56,619 nucleotides of DNA from Candidatus Moraniibacteriota bacterium (GTDB lineage: Bacteria; Patescibacteriota; Minisyncoccia; Moranbacterales; UBA1568), in contig JAHBAT020000010.1 of NCBI GenBank assembly GCA_018499985.2, positions 1 through 56,619 on the forward strand. Direction: 5' to 3'. Positions within the stretch are counted from its first letter, which is position 1; each line of letters begins with the position of its first letter. Shown piece by piece: positions 7,827 through 42,571 of the stretch. Below the pieces are notes generated by a model. The model saw only the letters and a list, made by a program, of their open reading frames with translations, had not been told where the DNA came from and searched no databases. Position numbers and translations under genes: made by a program.

Positions 7827-7861
7827 CGCTAAAGTAGTATTTCCTGTTCTTTAGAAAATAT

Positions 7862-7977
7862 CTTTTCGACTCAATTCTGATTACAGGGTGAAAGAAGACA
7901 TCCCTCCTAGTCTTTTTTCGCTGAAATGAAATAAAACCTCGGTTTTTTTCGGCTGTAGTCAGAATTGAGTCGAAAAG
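7862..7977. repeat. 116-bp element with 24-bp terminal inverted repeats
   Basis: The left arm 7862-7885 and right arm 7954-7977 are reverse complements with one mismatch in 24. The 68 bp between them hold no ORF. The element sits between the rplY terminator and the pth terminator, so it is not needed for either. Size and ends suggest a MITE-like insertion or a long-hairpin RNA. The TCAGAATTGA decamer in its right arm also begins the elements at 12861 and 41846. Confidence 0.6.
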
Positions 7978-7978
7978 G

Positions 7979-8010
7979 AAAAGCCCCCGCTATGCGGGGG
8001 CTTTTGTTTT
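7979..8010. terminator. Bidirectional terminator between rplY and pth
   Basis: A 12-bp stem (AAAAGCCCCCGC / GCGGGGGCTTTT) with loop TAT. A-run and T-run on both sides fit use from both strands, mainly for pth. Confidence 0.85.
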
Positions 8011-10970: not shown

Positions 10971-12443
10971 ATGGCAATTAATAAGAAAACCATGCAAGCA
11001 AAGAAAAAAACAGCTGTGAAAGCTACAAAAAGTACGCCGGTTAAAAAGGCAGTAGCAAAAAAAGTTACTCAGCCAGCTAAGCAAAAGCAGGTGGAGGAAG
11101 AAATGCTTCTTCAGGCTTTGCGTGGGATGCGAGATATCTTACCAGATGAACAGCCTTACTGGGAGCGTGCTAGACGGGTACTCACACATGCTGCTACAGA
11201 GTATGGTTTTAGTCGTATTGATTTGCCTACCGTAGAATTTGCTCATCTCTACTTGCGAAGTATTGGTGACGGTACAGATATTATCGACAAAGAAATGTAT
11301 CTTTTCAATACACGTGGTGGAGATAAAGTGGCGCTCCGTCCCGAGATGACAGCGGGTCTTTGTCGGGCCTATATCGAGCATGGCATGGGAGTGCTTCCAA
11401 AACCAATTAAGCTTTTTTCTACGGGACCAGTTTTTCGTTATGATCGTCCACAGGAGGGACGTTATCGAGAACACTACCAGGCTAACTTCGATATGTTTGG
11501 TGAAAGTGATGCTATCTTGGATGCACAGACCGTACAACTTGCCTTCCGTGTGGTACAGCAGCTCGGACTAAAGAATATTGAGTTTCAAGTTAACTCTATT
11601 GGGACACCAGAGACTCGCAAGGACTACGAGAAAGCCCTTGTGCGTTACCTTGAGTCTCAAAAGCAAAAGCTTTGCCTAAAGTGCCGTGAGCGTCTTCTGG
11701 CTAATCCAATGCGTATTTTGGACTGCAAAGAAGATAAGTGTATTCAGTTGACAGCGCATGCACCGCAATCACTTGATTATCTAGACCCAGATTCAAGAGA
11801 ACACTTCAAGAAGTTTTTGGAGTACCTTGATGAACTTGAATTGCCATATTCTATCAATACTCGTCTTGTACGCGGTCTTGATTACTATACCCGCACAGTA
11901 TTTGAAATCCGCTCAACGGATAAAGACGGCAAAAATTACTCTCTTGGCGGCGGCGGACGCTATGATCGTCTGATCGAAGGTCTCGGAGGAGAAAGTACTC
12001 CAGCTATTGGATTTGCTCTTGGTCTAGATCGTATTGTCCTTGAGATGAAGCGCACTCAGGTAAAGCCGTATCACCCGCCACAACCAAAGGTTTTCTTGGC
12101 ACAGCTTGGCGAAATGGCCAAGAAAAAGAGTCTTAGACTTTTCTCAGATCTTGAGAAAAACGGAGTACTTTTGGCTGAGAGTTTTGGTCGCGGAAGTTTG
12201 AAGAGTCAGCTCCGTGTAGCCAATCGTCTTGGAGTAGAAATTACGATTATTATCGGACAAAAGGAGGCTCTAGATGAGACAGCTATTATCAAGGATATGA
12301 TTTCTGGTACTCAGGAAACAGTCACTCAAGAAAAGCTCGTCGAGAGCGTCAAGAAGCTTCTCAAGGCTAATCAGGTGCTCACCATTAAGGACGGCCCAAG
12401 AGAGAATCGTTTCAGTGCTGCTGATCAAGAAGATGAAGATTAG
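10971..12443 (+). CDS. hisS: Histidyl-tRNA synthetase
   Basis: This class II synthetase charges tRNA-His. The core starts near residue 45 (LRGMRDILPDEQPYWERA). Motif 2 is FRYDRPQEGRYREHYQ, the histidine-binding LVRGLDYYTRTVFEI lies in the middle, and motif 3 is GIGFALGLDRI-like (AIGFALGLDRIVLEM). The anticodon-binding domain follows. The first 44 residues are a Lys/Ala/Thr-rich tail not found in typical HisRS, and about 25 charged residues extend the C-terminus. The HIT gene starts 1 bp after the stop. Confidence 0.95.
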   Translation: MAINKKTMQAKKKTAVKATKSTPVKKAVAKKVTQPAKQKQVEEEMLLQALRGMRDILPDEQPYWERARRVLTHAATEYGFSRIDLPTVEFAHLYLRSIGDGTDIIDKEMYLFNTRGGDKVALRPEMTAGLCRAYIEHGMGVLPKPIKLFSTGPVFRYDRPQEGRYREHYQANFDMFGESDAILDAQTVQLAFRVVQQLGLKNIEFQVNSIGTPETRKDYEKALVRYLESQKQKLCLKCRERLLANPMRILDCKEDKCIQLTAHAPQSLDYLDPDSREHFKKFLEYLDELELPYSINTRLVRGLDYYTRTVFEIRSTDKDGKNYSLGGGGRYDRLIEGLGGESTPAIGFALGLDRIVLEMKRTQVKPYHPPQPKVFLAQLGEMAKKKSLRLFSDLEKNGVLLAESFGRGSLKSQLRVANRLGVEITIIIGQKEALDETAIIKDMISGTQETVTQEKLVESVKKLLKANQVLTIKDGPRENRFSAADQEDED

Positions 12444-12444
12444 T

Positions 12445-12792
12445 ATGGAAGAGACGATTTTTCACAAAATGGCAAAGGGCGAAATAGTACCCAAAGATGT
12501 CGTTTATGAAGATGATAGAGTGCTGGCATTTCGAGATATTCATCCGGTAGCTCCAGTGCATATAGTGATTATTCCTAAAAAAGAAATCGCTTCAGTGGCA
12601 GGTATGGTAGAGGAAGACAAAGAAGTGCTTGGGCATATCATCTGGGTGACACACGTCTTGGCAGAGCAGGAAGGAATAGCCGAAAGCGGCTACCGTATCG
12701 TGACCAATAGTGGAGAGGATAGTACTCGTGAAGTAGAGTATCTCCACTTCCATCTCATTGGAGGCAAACGCTTAGGGAGTAAAATTGGTTAG
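12445..12792 (+). CDS. HIT-family (HINT-like) nucleotide hydrolase with altered triad
   Basis: HINT proteins cleave phosphoramidates of purine nucleotides. The 115-aa protein has the family strands (TIFHKMAKGEIVPKDVVYED, FRDIHPVAPVHIVIIPK) and a C-terminal EYLHFHLIGGK. The usual His-x-His-x-His reads Tyr99-Leu-His101-Phe-His103. The middle nucleophilic histidine is kept, but the first histidine is a tyrosine. The ATG at 12445 is used because the frame upstream lies inside hisS. A terminator follows directly. Confidence 0.88.
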   Translation: MEETIFHKMAKGEIVPKDVVYEDDRVLAFRDIHPVAPVHIVIIPKKEIASVAGMVEEDKEVLGHIIWVTHVLAEQEGIAESGYRIVTNSGEDSTREVEYLHFHLIGGKRLGSKIG

Positions 12793-12795
12793 AGT

Positions 12796-12828
12796 AAAAA
12801 GAGCTCTTTAGAGGGCTCTTTTTATTTT
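12796..12828 (+). terminator. Terminator after HIT gene
   Basis: AAAAAGAGC/GCTCTTTTT stem of 9 bp, then TTATTTT. Confidence 0.88.
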
Positions 12829-12860
12829 GCTGGCGGTGTTTATTTAAAAAAAATTCCTCA

Positions 12861-12990
12861 ACCTTTTTCAGAATTGACTCCTTTAAGACCTATGCGTCAA
12901 GAATGTCTGCTCACGGGCCACGAGTATCCAGGCTTGCATGCATTCTAGTGACGCTTCAGTCCTAGAGTACTTACAATTCCTCAAGCGGTT
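12861..12990. repeat. Structured repeat, copy 1 (left flank of DGR island)
   Basis: This 130-bp element matches 41846-41976. The 51-nt core 12899-12949 differs from its partner at two positions, while the flanking helices differ but still pair. Here CGTC (12895-12898) pairs with GACG (12950-12953) where copy 2 has CGCC/GGCG. AGAATG (12900-12905) pairs with CATTCT (12941-12946). Outer pairs GAATTG/CAATTC, ACTC/GAGT and GAC/GTC follow. Compensatory changes point to selection on an RNA or DNA hairpin. The intergenic stretch 12829-13056 holds nothing else recognisable. Confidence 0.75.
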
Positions 12991-13056
12991 TCAGAAATTG
13001 TTTTTTAAAGAATTCAGAGAGGGATGATTCCAAGATATTGAACCATAACAGAACTA

Positions 13057-13085
13057 TTGACTTTTTAGAGAAATAAGAGTATAAT
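13057..13085 (+). promoter_or_regulatory. Near-consensus promoter of the DGR target gene
   Basis: TTGACT (13057-13062), a 17-bp spacer and TATAAT (13080-13085). This is the best promoter in the window by eye and predicts a leader of about 185 nt. Confidence 0.85.
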
Positions 13086-13108
13086 AACATATTGAACATT
13101 AACAATCA

Positions 13109-13237
13109 GGTTTACCGGAGCCATCACTTTTTTAGTCTTTCTTAGGTCAGTCTCTCTATTTAGAAGCTAAGCCTCTAAGTGCTTGGAGGTTGAACTCCAA
13201 GTTAGGGGGGGTAGAAGAGTGGTGGCTGTGGTAAACC
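13109..13237 (+). promoter_or_regulatory. Long structured leader of the DGR target mRNA
   Basis: GGTTTACC and AGCCATCAC (13109-13127) pair with GTGGTGGCT and GGTAAACC (13219-13237), 17 of 19 positions. The enclosed part holds a second helix (CCTCTAA/TTAGGGG, then CTTGGAG/CTCCAAG, 13172-13208). AAGGTG at 13266-13271 is a ribosome binding site for the ATG at 13279. A riboswitch-like or stability role is possible; no known class was recognised. Confidence 0.6.
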
Positions 13238-13278: not shown

Positions 13279-14007
13279 ATGGTGAATGGAACAAAACCCG
13301 CGACCGCCAAACAAGTGGTGGCAATCCAACAGATGCTCGGACAGGGTGTCTATGGAAGCGATCTGAGCTTTGATGAGGCGCAAGCGCTCATCACTGACAA
13401 ACGCGCTCAGCAAGCGCTGCTCCGAGATGTGCTCACAGCCTGGAAGCTGAAGCGTCTCATCAACCCTTATGTCGAAGAGCAGGCCTGGTGCCTGAACTTC
13501 CTTCAGGGTGCCGGCGTACTGACGACTGGTCTCGATGAGGCCGTCGTGCCCGAACGCCCGAGTGGCACTGCCTGGCTCATTCCACTCCCCGCAGGAGTCG
13601 GATGCAACCATATCTTCGATAATCTTTGGAACTTCGCCAAGTGGCGCTGGACGGATGATCTCGATGGCCAGCTGGCCAAGCAGGATCTTTCGGCGAGGTG
13701 GATCTGGGTCGAACCCAACCTGCCTGACCTCGAGCCGGATAAGGCCACACTTGGACAATCAGCCAACCAGGCTGACCCAGAGCAACAGAGCATCCAGCTC
13801 CGTGAGGGAATGATGTTCTATGCTGTGGCCTACCAGAAGACTGGTCGGGTGCCGGACAAGAAGGGTTATACTCTCTGCGGTGGCTCCCGCTATCGCGATG
13901 GCAATGTCCCGCGCCTCTACCTCAACGACAATGGCGAGGCGTACGTGGACAGGTACGGTCCTGACAAGGCGGTCGGCGCGCACGGAGTGCGTCAAGCAGT
14001 TCGGTAA
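13279..14007 (+). CDS. DGR target (variable) protein
   Basis: A 242-aa protein whose last 38 codons (residues 202-239) are the variable repeat of a diversity-generating retroelement. The N-terminal part (residues 1-60) is helical (AIQQMLGQGVYGSDLSFDEA); the middle is Trp-rich (NLWNFAKWRWTDDLDG, ARWIWVEPNL). The C-terminal GGSRYRDG...GVRQ fits the C-type-lectin-like fold of DGR targets. No signal peptide or membrane helix is seen, so the product may be cytoplasmic or exported by other means. Base composition is richer in G+C than the neighbours (sampled lines about 55% against 45%), which suggests transfer. Start chosen from AAGGTG seven bases upstream. Confidence 0.82.
   Translation: MVNGTKPATAKQVVAIQQMLGQGVYGSDLSFDEAQALITDKRAQQALLRDVLTAWKLKRLINPYVEEQAWCLNFLQGAGVLTTGLDEAVVPERPSGTAWLIPLPAGVGCNHIFDNLWNFAKWRWTDDLDGQLAKQDLSARWIWVEPNLPDLEPDKATLGQSANQADPEQQSIQLREGMMFYAVAYQKTGRVPDKKGYTLCGGSRYRDGNVPRLYLNDNGEAYVDRYGPDKAVGAHGVRQAVR
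13882..13994 (+). repeat. DGR variable repeat (VR)
   Basis: Ungapped 113-bp partner of the template repeat 14268-14380. Thirteen positions differ; twelve are A in the template and G, C or T here. The thirteenth (T to G) lies in the terminal GGAGTKCGTCA, the expected initiation-of-mutagenic-homing position. Ten codons are hit, nine with amino acid change: R212, D217, E220, Y222, D224, G227, V232, G233, H235 (A231 is silent). Confidence 0.93.
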
Positions 14008-14267: not shown

Positions 14268-14380
14268 GGCTCCCGCTATCGCGATGGCAATGTCCCGAAC
14301 CTCTACCTCAACAACAATGGCAAGGCGAACGTGAACAGGTACAATCCTGACAAGGCAGACGACGCGAACGGAGTTCGTCA
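14268..14380 (+). repeat. DGR template repeat (TR)
   Basis: Non-coding 113-bp donor repeat. In the target frame it reads as an Asn-rich series of AAY codons (PNLYLNNNGKANVNRYNPDK), the hallmark of template repeats in which adenines are mutated during reverse transcription. Of about 33 adenines, 12 are changed in the VR; of about 80 other bases, one is. It lies 273 bp downstream of the VR in the same orientation. Confidence 0.93.
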
Positions 14381-24063: not shown

Positions 24064-24180
24064 GATAGAGGGTTGACCCCGTTAGAAGTAGTTATGAGTA
24101 AAACTTTCCTCGAGTTGATAAGTGATTGCCAAGCCGTATTATTGCCCTCTATCCTTAAACCCCTTCTACTTCTAACGGGG
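24064..24180. repeat. Interleaved inverted repeats upstream of the str promoter
   Basis: CCCCGTTAGAAGTAG (24077-24091) is a perfect inverted repeat of 24166-24180. GATAGAGGG (24064-24072) pairs with CCCTCTATC (24145-24153). The two pairs interleave, so they are either alternatives or a pseudoknot. The right arm touches the -35 box of the rpsL promoter. It could be a DNA operator or the 3' UTR of the M50 mRNA. No gene in 24009-24288. Confidence 0.55.
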
Positions 24181-24209
24181 TTGACAATATCCAAAGCATT
24201 CCCTATTAT
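24181..24209 (+). promoter_or_regulatory. Promoter for rpsL-rpsG
   Basis: TTGACA (24181-24186), 17-bp spacer, TATTAT (24204-24209). Confidence 0.85.
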
Positions 24210-40997: not shown

Positions 40998-41768
40998 ATG
41001 AATCTTTTTATTAAAAATGAACAGGAGATAGCTAGTCTAAGAGAGTCGTGTCGTCATTTGGCGCGCATTCTTGATGAAGTGCTAGCGGAAGCTCGTGCAG
41101 GAGTATCTACTTTAGAATTGGATACTTTGGCTGAAAAGAGAATGCGAGAAGTGGGGGGTGTGCCAATTTTTAAGGGGTACGGAGCGGAAAGCGGAAGACC
41201 TTTTCCTGGTTCTATTTGCAGTTCAATTAATGAAGAAGTAGTCCATGGTATTCCAAGTAAGGATCGTATCTTGAAGGATGGCGATATCCTTAAAATTGAT
41301 ATTGGTATGCGTTATCAGGGCATGGTGTCTGATATGGCAAGAAGCATTGCTATTGGTGAGGTATCAGCTGAGGCAAAGCGCATTATGCAGGTGACAGAAG
41401 AAAGCTTGCTTCGGGGTATTGATACTTTGAAACCAGGCGCAAAGGTGAGTGACTATGCTCGTGCTGTCCAAAACCATGTTGAAAAGAATGGTTTTTCGGT
41501 AGTACGTGATTTAGTAGGGCATAGTGTAGGAAGAGAGCTTCATGAAGATGTGCAGATACCAAACTATGTGACACGAGATGTACCCGATGTGACTTTTGTG
41601 CCGGGCATGACTTTGGCTTTGGAGCCAATGGTGAATGCTGGTACGTATGAGGTAGAGATTGCCCCTGATGATTGGACCTTTATTTCAGCTGATGATAGGT
41701 TGTCGGCTCATTTTGAGGACACGGTACTGATTACAGAAGATGGAGTAGAAATCCTGACTCGTCCATAG
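40998..41768 (+). CDS. map: Methionine aminopeptidase
   Basis: MetAP removes the initiator methionine. The metal ligands are all seen: the two Asp of IDIGMRYQGMVSDMAR, the His of GHSVGRELHE, the Glu of LALEPMVNAG and the Glu of HFEDTVLIT. 256 aa, type I. The cluster stops here: infA, rpmJ, rpsM, rpsK, rpsD, rpoA and rplQ do not follow. Confidence 0.96.
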   Translation: MNLFIKNEQEIASLRESCRHLARILDEVLAEARAGVSTLELDTLAEKRMREVGGVPIFKGYGAESGRPFPGSICSSINEEVVHGIPSKDRILKDGDILKIDIGMRYQGMVSDMARSIAIGEVSAEAKRIMQVTEESLLRGIDTLKPGAKVSDYARAVQNHVEKNGFSVVRDLVGHSVGRELHEDVQIPNYVTRDVPDVTFVPGMTLALEPMVNAGTYEVEIAPDDWTFISADDRLSAHFEDTVLITEDGVEILTRP

Positions 41769-41845
41769 CACTTCTCGTAGTGAGTTGTGCAGGTGAGACC
41801 TTGGCTTTTAGGATTAAATACTACGTTATTAGGTTATTTTTTCTC

Positions 41846-41976
41846 ACCTGTCTCAGAATTGACCGTTATCCATTCTCCTCGCCAAGAATGTCTGCTCACG
41901 GGCCACAAGTGTCCAGGCTTGCATGCATTCTAGTGGCGTTCCGAATGCAGAACGGTTACAATTCTTCAAAACGGTT
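41846..41976. repeat. Structured repeat, copy 2 (upstream of ruvX)
   Basis: Partner of 12861-12990. The 51-nt core is 41884-41934. Helices: AGAATTG/CAATTCT, ACCGTT/AACGGT, CATTC/GAATG, CGCC/GGCG, AGAATG/CATTCT. Where the sequence differs from copy 1 the pairing is kept. A CAGGTGAGA/TCTCACCTG inverted repeat (41790-41798, 41842-41850) lies just before it and may be the map terminator. ORFs drawn over this region are not credible genes. Confidence 0.75.
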
Positions 41977-42037
41977 CTTAAAAATAACACAAATAACTAC
42001 GTCAGGTATAGGGTGAGCAGAAAGAAAAGCTTGTTTA

Positions 42038-42181: not shown

Positions 42182-42571
42182 ATGGAAAACAAAAACTTTT
42201 TAGCCCTTGATTGGGGGCGATCCAAGGTGGGGGTGGCGCTGGCTCATGCGGAGACTCGGATAGCGGTGGCCTATGGGATATGGCCCGTAGATGAGAATCT
42301 ATGGCCTATTCTTAAAAAAATTCTACAGATAGAGGAAATAGGGACCGTAATCCTCGGTGATCCTGAACATCCAGAGGCTGATTTTGCTGAGGAACTTATG
42401 CAGGTGCGTGAAAAGCTCGCCGCACTTGGTGTGGGAGTAGTGATGCAAAATGAAATGTTTACCAGTAAGATGGCTCAAGCCAATAGGCTAGAAGCGGCCA
42501 AAAAGGCTGTTCAGGCACATGATGATGCTGAAGCTGCTCGTATCATGCTTACTGATTGGCTAGAAAAATAG
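42182..42571 (+). CDS. ruvX: RuvX/YqgF-type Holliday junction resolvase-like protein
   Basis: The family has an RNase H fold and works in 16S rRNA 5' processing or Holliday junction resolution. The motifs are ALDWGRSKVGVALA (usually DYGxxRIGVA), VILGDPEHPE, NEMFTSKMAQ (usually DERLTT) and HDDAEAARIML (usually DxxAAxxIL). The catalytic acids are kept. 129 aa. The leader is A/T-rich, with no ribosome binding site. Confidence 0.85.
   Translation: MENKNFLALDWGRSKVGVALAHAETRIAVAYGIWPVDENLWPILKKILQIEEIGTVILGDPEHPEADFAEELMQVREKLAALGVGVVMQNEMFTSKMAQANRLEAAKKAVQAHDDAEAARIMLTDWLEK

Follow-up and report, generated by a model that had tools for sequence, protein, structure and literature searches.

The two repeats that we followed up in the window, by which we mean the whole 56,619-nucleotide stretch of Moraniibacteriota DNA analyzed here, seem to us reasonably probable copies of a small non-coding palindromic element that sits downstream of genes in Moranbacteria, keeps a conserved loop and core, and has its arms rebuilt by self-templated copying. 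A related family in the same genus is dispersed in multiple copies, has near-identical cores at different loci, shows strong covariation in its stems, and lies in sense orientation after genes. In the young copies of that family the outer arms are specific to each locus and pair with each other perfectly, and the lengths of these arms are narrowly distributed, with a mode of 24-25 nt counted from the core and approximately 15-16 nt of locus sequence.

A first-pass annotation of this DNA had described one repeat in two copies, and we recovered both of them on the plus strand, at 12861-12992 and 41846-41977. The 51-nt core in which it counted 49 identities is a sub-stretch of a longer core that is identical at 51 of 53 positions. 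When folded, each copy forms a single long imperfect hairpin of approximately 155-165 nt, and both hairpins reach beyond the repeat as first described through AT-rich outer arms that differ from one copy to the other (TTTAAAAAAAATT/AATTGTTTTTTAAA and TTATTTTT/AAAAATAA). The features of the window that concern us are these.

12843..13009, plus strand: hairpin element copy 1, from sequence and folding, with AT-rich outer arms at 12843-12855 and 12995-13009.
12898..12950, plus strand: core of copy 1, comprising the loop and inner stem, with an AG bulge at TTCT-AG-TGAC; 51/53 identical to the core of copy 2.
41834..41988, plus strand: hairpin element copy 2, with outer arms TTATTTTT and AAAAATAA; DNA folding z = -4.1.
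41883..41935, plus strand: core of copy 2; 51/53 identical to the core of copy 1.
7862..7977 (scored as 7849-7983), no strand assigned: a further long intergenic palindrome with 25-bp arms (24/25) and a 66-nt interior; z = -7.9.

Folded as DNA and compared with shuffled sequences, copy 2 is clearly more stable (z = -4.1), and copy 1 shows no clear stability above the shuffles (z = -1.2). RNAalifold, applied to the two copies, finds 29 pairs, with 4 two-sided changes and 0 broken pairs. The paired arm changes to which attention had been drawn fare differently. The replacement of CGTC/GACG by CGCC/GGCG is genuine, with both sides changed in register. That of ACTC/GAGT by ACCGTT/AACGGT is real as a change, but it is not column-wise covariation, since the 3' partners lie 3 nt out of register, as in a rebuilt helix.

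Copy 2 occupies the spacer between map (40998-41768) and ruvX (42182-42571), and copy 1 lies between a gene for a HIT-family protein (12415-12792) and a DGR target gene cassette. In this cassette, an ORF at 13279-14007 ends in a variable repeat (13882-13994) that differs by inspection from the template repeat (14268-14380) almost exclusively at template adenines. The genome bin yielded no reverse transcriptase, so that of the cassette is either absent from the assembly or lost. In the leader of the DGR target gene there is also a 130-nt near-perfect hairpin (13108-13237, GGTTTACCG..CGGTAAACC type) with a strong promoter-like site just upstream (13057-13085). We set aside a link between copy 1 and this cassette because copy 2 has no such neighbor.

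A BLAST search of the 0.89-Mb genome that carries the window (G000, 98.6% complete) with copy 1 returns copy 2 at E = 7e-20, far beyond chance, and no third copy; BLAST likewise finds no core of the window type in 12 congeners. The first-pass annotation had proposed that a covariance model of both copies be used to find further homologs. A covariance model (CM R1), run with fast filters against genus and family, recovered only the two known copies, as did BLAST. The window core as an exact pattern has 0 matches in viral and genome collections, and blastn against phages and plasmids gave no match to the repeat.

Homologs of the family type surfaced only once we read the orthologous map-ruvX spacers of the 12 congeners. 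Two of them have a diverged long hairpin at the position of copy 2 (L020 in G008 and L010 in G006), so that this spacer is hairpin-occupied in G000, G006 and G008. The L020 element begins 67 nt after map and matches CM R1, with filters off, at an E of approximately 0.003-0.005. Against R1, the window copies read on their reverse strand reach scores similar to that of L020, so this match alone is not strong; in addition to it, the element shares the position and the motif GCC[A/G]AGAA ... TTCT-AG-[T/C]GGC. The L010 element was spotted by eye and then confirmed against L020 at E = 4e-7.

The L020 element opened the way to a larger family. Used as a BLAST query, this element matches several copies in G008, three of them (itself aside) at 94-99% identity, as well as copies in G007, G010 and G003. 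A covariance model built from five of these family elements (CM R2) finds approximately 40 copies, 130-190 nt long, in 10 of 13 genus genomes and in G019, from one other genus, or 11 of 129 order genomes overall; the other 118 genomes searched gave 0 copies. When the family core pattern was compared with 84,980 species, its 9 loci were all in Candidatus Moranbacteria, and there were none in viral contigs.

We tested the significance of covariation, as the first-pass annotation had suggested, on this family. Among 34 distinct forward copies (set A6), 40 of the 46 pairs changed on both sides, in 237 cells, whereas shuffles gave 74 such cells and controls with slid partners no more than 52. The alignment, having been fitted to the model, is biased toward it, but the control values lie far below the observed count. 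In the well-paired columns, 74 G.T and 54 A.C pairs depart from Watson-Crick pairing, and the lack of a clear excess of G.U over A.C gives little sign of RNA-level tolerance of G.U. We dropped a claim about strand drawn from A.C-biased arm mismatches, which overall are 67 A.C and 17 G.T, many of them in a shared element-terminal stretch; mismatches in the significant distal arms are 15 A.C and 7 G.T. A maximum-nesting scan of the folds did not discriminate. With respect to genes, 34 of 43 copies have a same-strand upstream gene, 6 are convergent and 0 divergent, counts that rest on crude ORF calls and on related copies that are not independent.

The sequence kinship of the window copies to this family is only suggestive. 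Neither a family profile HMM nor CM R2 with filters on finds them. With filters off, CM R2 scores copy 2 at 15.6 bits (E of 0.045, window alone) and copy 1 at 9.6 bits, and an unrelated palindrome at 7849-7983 at 16.1 bits. That palindrome scores highest in the window, but equally on its two strands, which makes the score a generic one; it has TCAGAATTGA in common with copies 1 and 2 and is possibly of the same class. A permutation test of kinship to the family gives p = 0.04 and 0.06 for the window copies, and their outer arms, which are short, score 10.5 and 8.0 against a 99% null of 11 and are not significant by themselves. Copy 2 occupies a niche of the family, the map-ruvX spacer, as do the L020 and L010 elements, and by anatomy both window copies fit the class, with a conserved core, paired arm changes, a position after a gene and one shared locus. 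Given this weak kinship and fitting anatomy, we file the window copies as the same kind of thing and not as proven homologs. They are probably old members of the class.

In G008 the outermost stem is perfect inside each copy and differs among copies: for example, AATTTTTCCAGAAGC-ATTCTTTTTTCTTC, GAAAAAACTTACAGAT-ATTCTTTTTTCTTC and TATATTTTCTAAAAC-ATTTCTTTTTCTTC each have their exact inverted complement opposite. The four youngest G008 copies have cores that are 97-100% identical and left distal arms that are 15-50% identical, and their own arm pairs are all 100% complementary over 29-30 nt. By inspection, the locus-specific portion is 15, 15, 15, 15 and 16 nt in five G008 copies. Across 44 copies, the outer arms of 25 score above the 99% cross-copy null, and in 14 of these 25 the arm measures 24-25 nt from the core; the distal arms alone are significant at p<0.01 in 23. 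We saw no direct target duplication by eye at five young G008 copies, and apart from a T/A run the elements lack constant terminal repeats. Nothing in them therefore resembles a canonical transposon end; the first-pass annotation had named a match to a known transposon end as a finding that would count against its reading. We also rejected a MITE of a DDE transposon, given that outer arms differ between near-identical copies and that the five young copies lack a flanking direct repeat.

Two further families in G008, with cores unrelated to that of the main family, have long complementary arms too. Seven copies of family B (AGATGAACC..GGTTCCCTA) were measured, and the cross-copy null overlaps since the inner arm is shared; for family C (GCTTGAA..), with 5 copies measured, there is no overlap.

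At L258:1159, L228:6886, L234:50, L249:10408 and L281:891 of G008, the hairpin cores of families B and C are enclosed by near-perfect stems of 23-31 bp that are particular to each locus.

Several other palindromic sequences came to light in these genomes. G008 (0.77 Mb) holds dozens of copies, up to 98% identical, of a palindromic repeat of approximately 120 nt that we call family D (CCTCTCGGCTGAACG..CGAGCCGAGAGG, e.g. L223:4836-4956). In copies of the main family at L154 (G010), L029 (G004) and L013 (G010), a small palindrome type, CTGTCTGCCGACAGGCAGG, lies within the core or replaces it, giving palindromes nested in palindromes. Inverted repeats at 24076-24181 of the window and on contig 5 of G000 (L067 5902-5983) have a common outer CCCCGTTAGA/TCTAACGGGG and inner arms that differ (AGTAG, GATAT); they are possibly another palindromic element family, and G008 holds ACCC[CA]GCACTA repeats that resemble them. 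Long palindromes are otherwise rare in G000, where 8 have an arm score of at least 16, among them a 5S rRNA processing stem and parS sites as judged by sequence.

Since recent copies have the same core and different perfect arms, we take the arms to be made at or soon after arrival. We propose that a hairpin strand would be attached to a single strand of the target DNA. Its 3' end would then fold back and prime synthesis on the next 15 nt or so of flanking sequence, which would thereby come to be present in an inverted copy as well. Template switching directed by the hairpin could later keep the drifting arms complementary, and the window copies would be older members in which the outer arms have partly decayed. 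The paired arms are more readily understood if one flank is copied as its inverted complement, during insertion or afterward, than as a product of selection on an RNA. The near-uniform arm length argues for a defined step, since random template switching should give broad lengths. A stronger form of this proposal, which we offer tentatively and as more doubtful than the reading given at the outset, is that these are mobile DNA hairpins whose insertion makes an inverted rather than a direct target copy of approximately 15 nt, so that each copy is born in a perfect locus-specific stem, and that the unrelated cores in Moranbacteria share this route, which would imply undescribed structure-recognizing machinery. 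The elements themselves are gene-free. The reverse transcriptase domain RVT_1 is present in 5 of 13 genus genomes and absent from G000, G008, G003 and G010, which does not support reading the elements as retroelement products. SbcD, part of a nuclease that cleaves long hairpins, is below the cut-off in all 13, which would help long hairpins to survive.

The first-pass annotation had taken the paired changes as a sign of selection on structure, which together with a conserved loop it called typical of functional RNAs or hairpin transposon ends. This reading is partly supported. Of its two ideas, that of a dispersed hairpin element is the better, in view of the multicopy, covarying family in the genus. 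Two paralogous structured RNAs, or 3'-UTR elements that stabilize upstream mRNAs, would account for the conserved loop and bulge, the paired arm changes and the sense orientation after genes. We nevertheless consider a functional RNA improbable. The repeat has no match in Rfam 15 at either the gathering or a permissive threshold, no promoter-like site lies directly upstream of copy 1 or copy 2, and copy 1 sits behind an apparent terminator of the HIT gene (12795-12828, by eye). G.U pairs are not clearly above A.C, and this core is found in 0 of 12 congeners. Near-identical cores with unrelated outer arms at different G008 loci are unexpected for an RNA gene; because these arms are still perfectly complementary, paired arm changes need not mean selection on an RNA, and the argument from structure is weakened accordingly.

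The locus-specific arms could instead be older than the insertion if the element entered the center of pre-existing chromosomal palindromes such as terminators, a type of targeting known from IS1272, a member of the IS1182 group (PMC5678879), and one with which the position after genes is consistent. However, compact palindromes with arms of at least 13 nt are rare, numbering 6 in the 0.89 Mb of G000 and approximately 10 in the 0.77 Mb of G008, several of the latter from one repeat family, and are thus not clearly above the number occupied. The young arms are AT-rich, near-uniform in length and not terminator-like, and they persist, whereas IS1272 removes its target stem-loop; we judge this origin to be no more probable than a functional RNA. 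Growth by mutation only, in which any hairpin core would extend and homogenize its arms by template switching after arrival, unrelated to the insertion step, seems to us rather unlikely, if less so than either of these. Template switching does make and maintain perfect hairpins (PMC8794818), nematomorph mitochondrial DNA has long perfect palindromes of no known function (PMC6649704), and arms of this kind on several unrelated core families, in genomes where SbcD falls below the cut-off, are in keeping with it. Growth alone, however, leaves the arrival of near-identical cores at different G008 loci unexplained, and a random process should not yield a mode of 24-25 nt. Least probable, and in our view very unlikely, is that a Y1 HUH transposase mobilized an IS200/IS605-type or REP/RAYT element of which the repeats are the ends or solo remnants. 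REPs are likewise imperfect, intergenic hairpins with a conserved bulge that lie after genes (PMC3733652), but they measure 20-40 nt as compared with 130-190 nt here, and Y1_Tnp (PF01797) is absent both from G000 and from G008 (94% complete), the carriers of the window copies and of the youngest copies, respectively.

Paired changes in a stem are widely read as proof that an RNA is functional, and this Moranbacteria family indicates that covariation can arise at the DNA level. Should a fixed-length inverted copy of the flank arise during insertion, it would constitute a footprint of transposition that lacks a related account in the searched open literature, in which 5.39 million open papers gave nothing related on an inverted target site duplication. 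Such a footprint would further imply, in CPR bacteria whose small genomes lack a recognizable SbcD, an enzyme that is not yet known.

Among known systems, ERIC, Correia and Rickettsia palindromic elements, which are MITE-like elements of bacteria, have constant terminal inverted repeats, and some have direct target duplications. Like the elements described here, they are non-coding, multicopy and hairpin-forming, with lengths of 100-200 nt; the terminal arms here, by contrast, are inverted and specific to each locus. REP/BIME sequences with RAYT (PMC3733652) resemble our elements in being dispersed intergenic imperfect hairpins with conserved unpaired bases, found after genes, with convergent regions favored over divergent ones, but the Moranbacteria elements are much longer, have locus-specific complementary arms of near-fixed length and occur in G000 and G008 without a Y1 gene. 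IS1272 targets palindromes, carries a transposase and deletes the target stem-loop (PMC5678879). Its insertion is similarly associated with inverted-repeat sites and makes no direct target duplication, whereas the element here is non-coding and is flanked by the arms. Finally, template switching can create and maintain stems (PMC8794818), as in the mitochondrial palindromes of nematomorphs (PMC6649704), and such hairpins share with ours perfect stems and concerted arm changes for which selection is not needed; the stems described here differ in that they enclose a conserved, dispersed core and are near-uniform in length.
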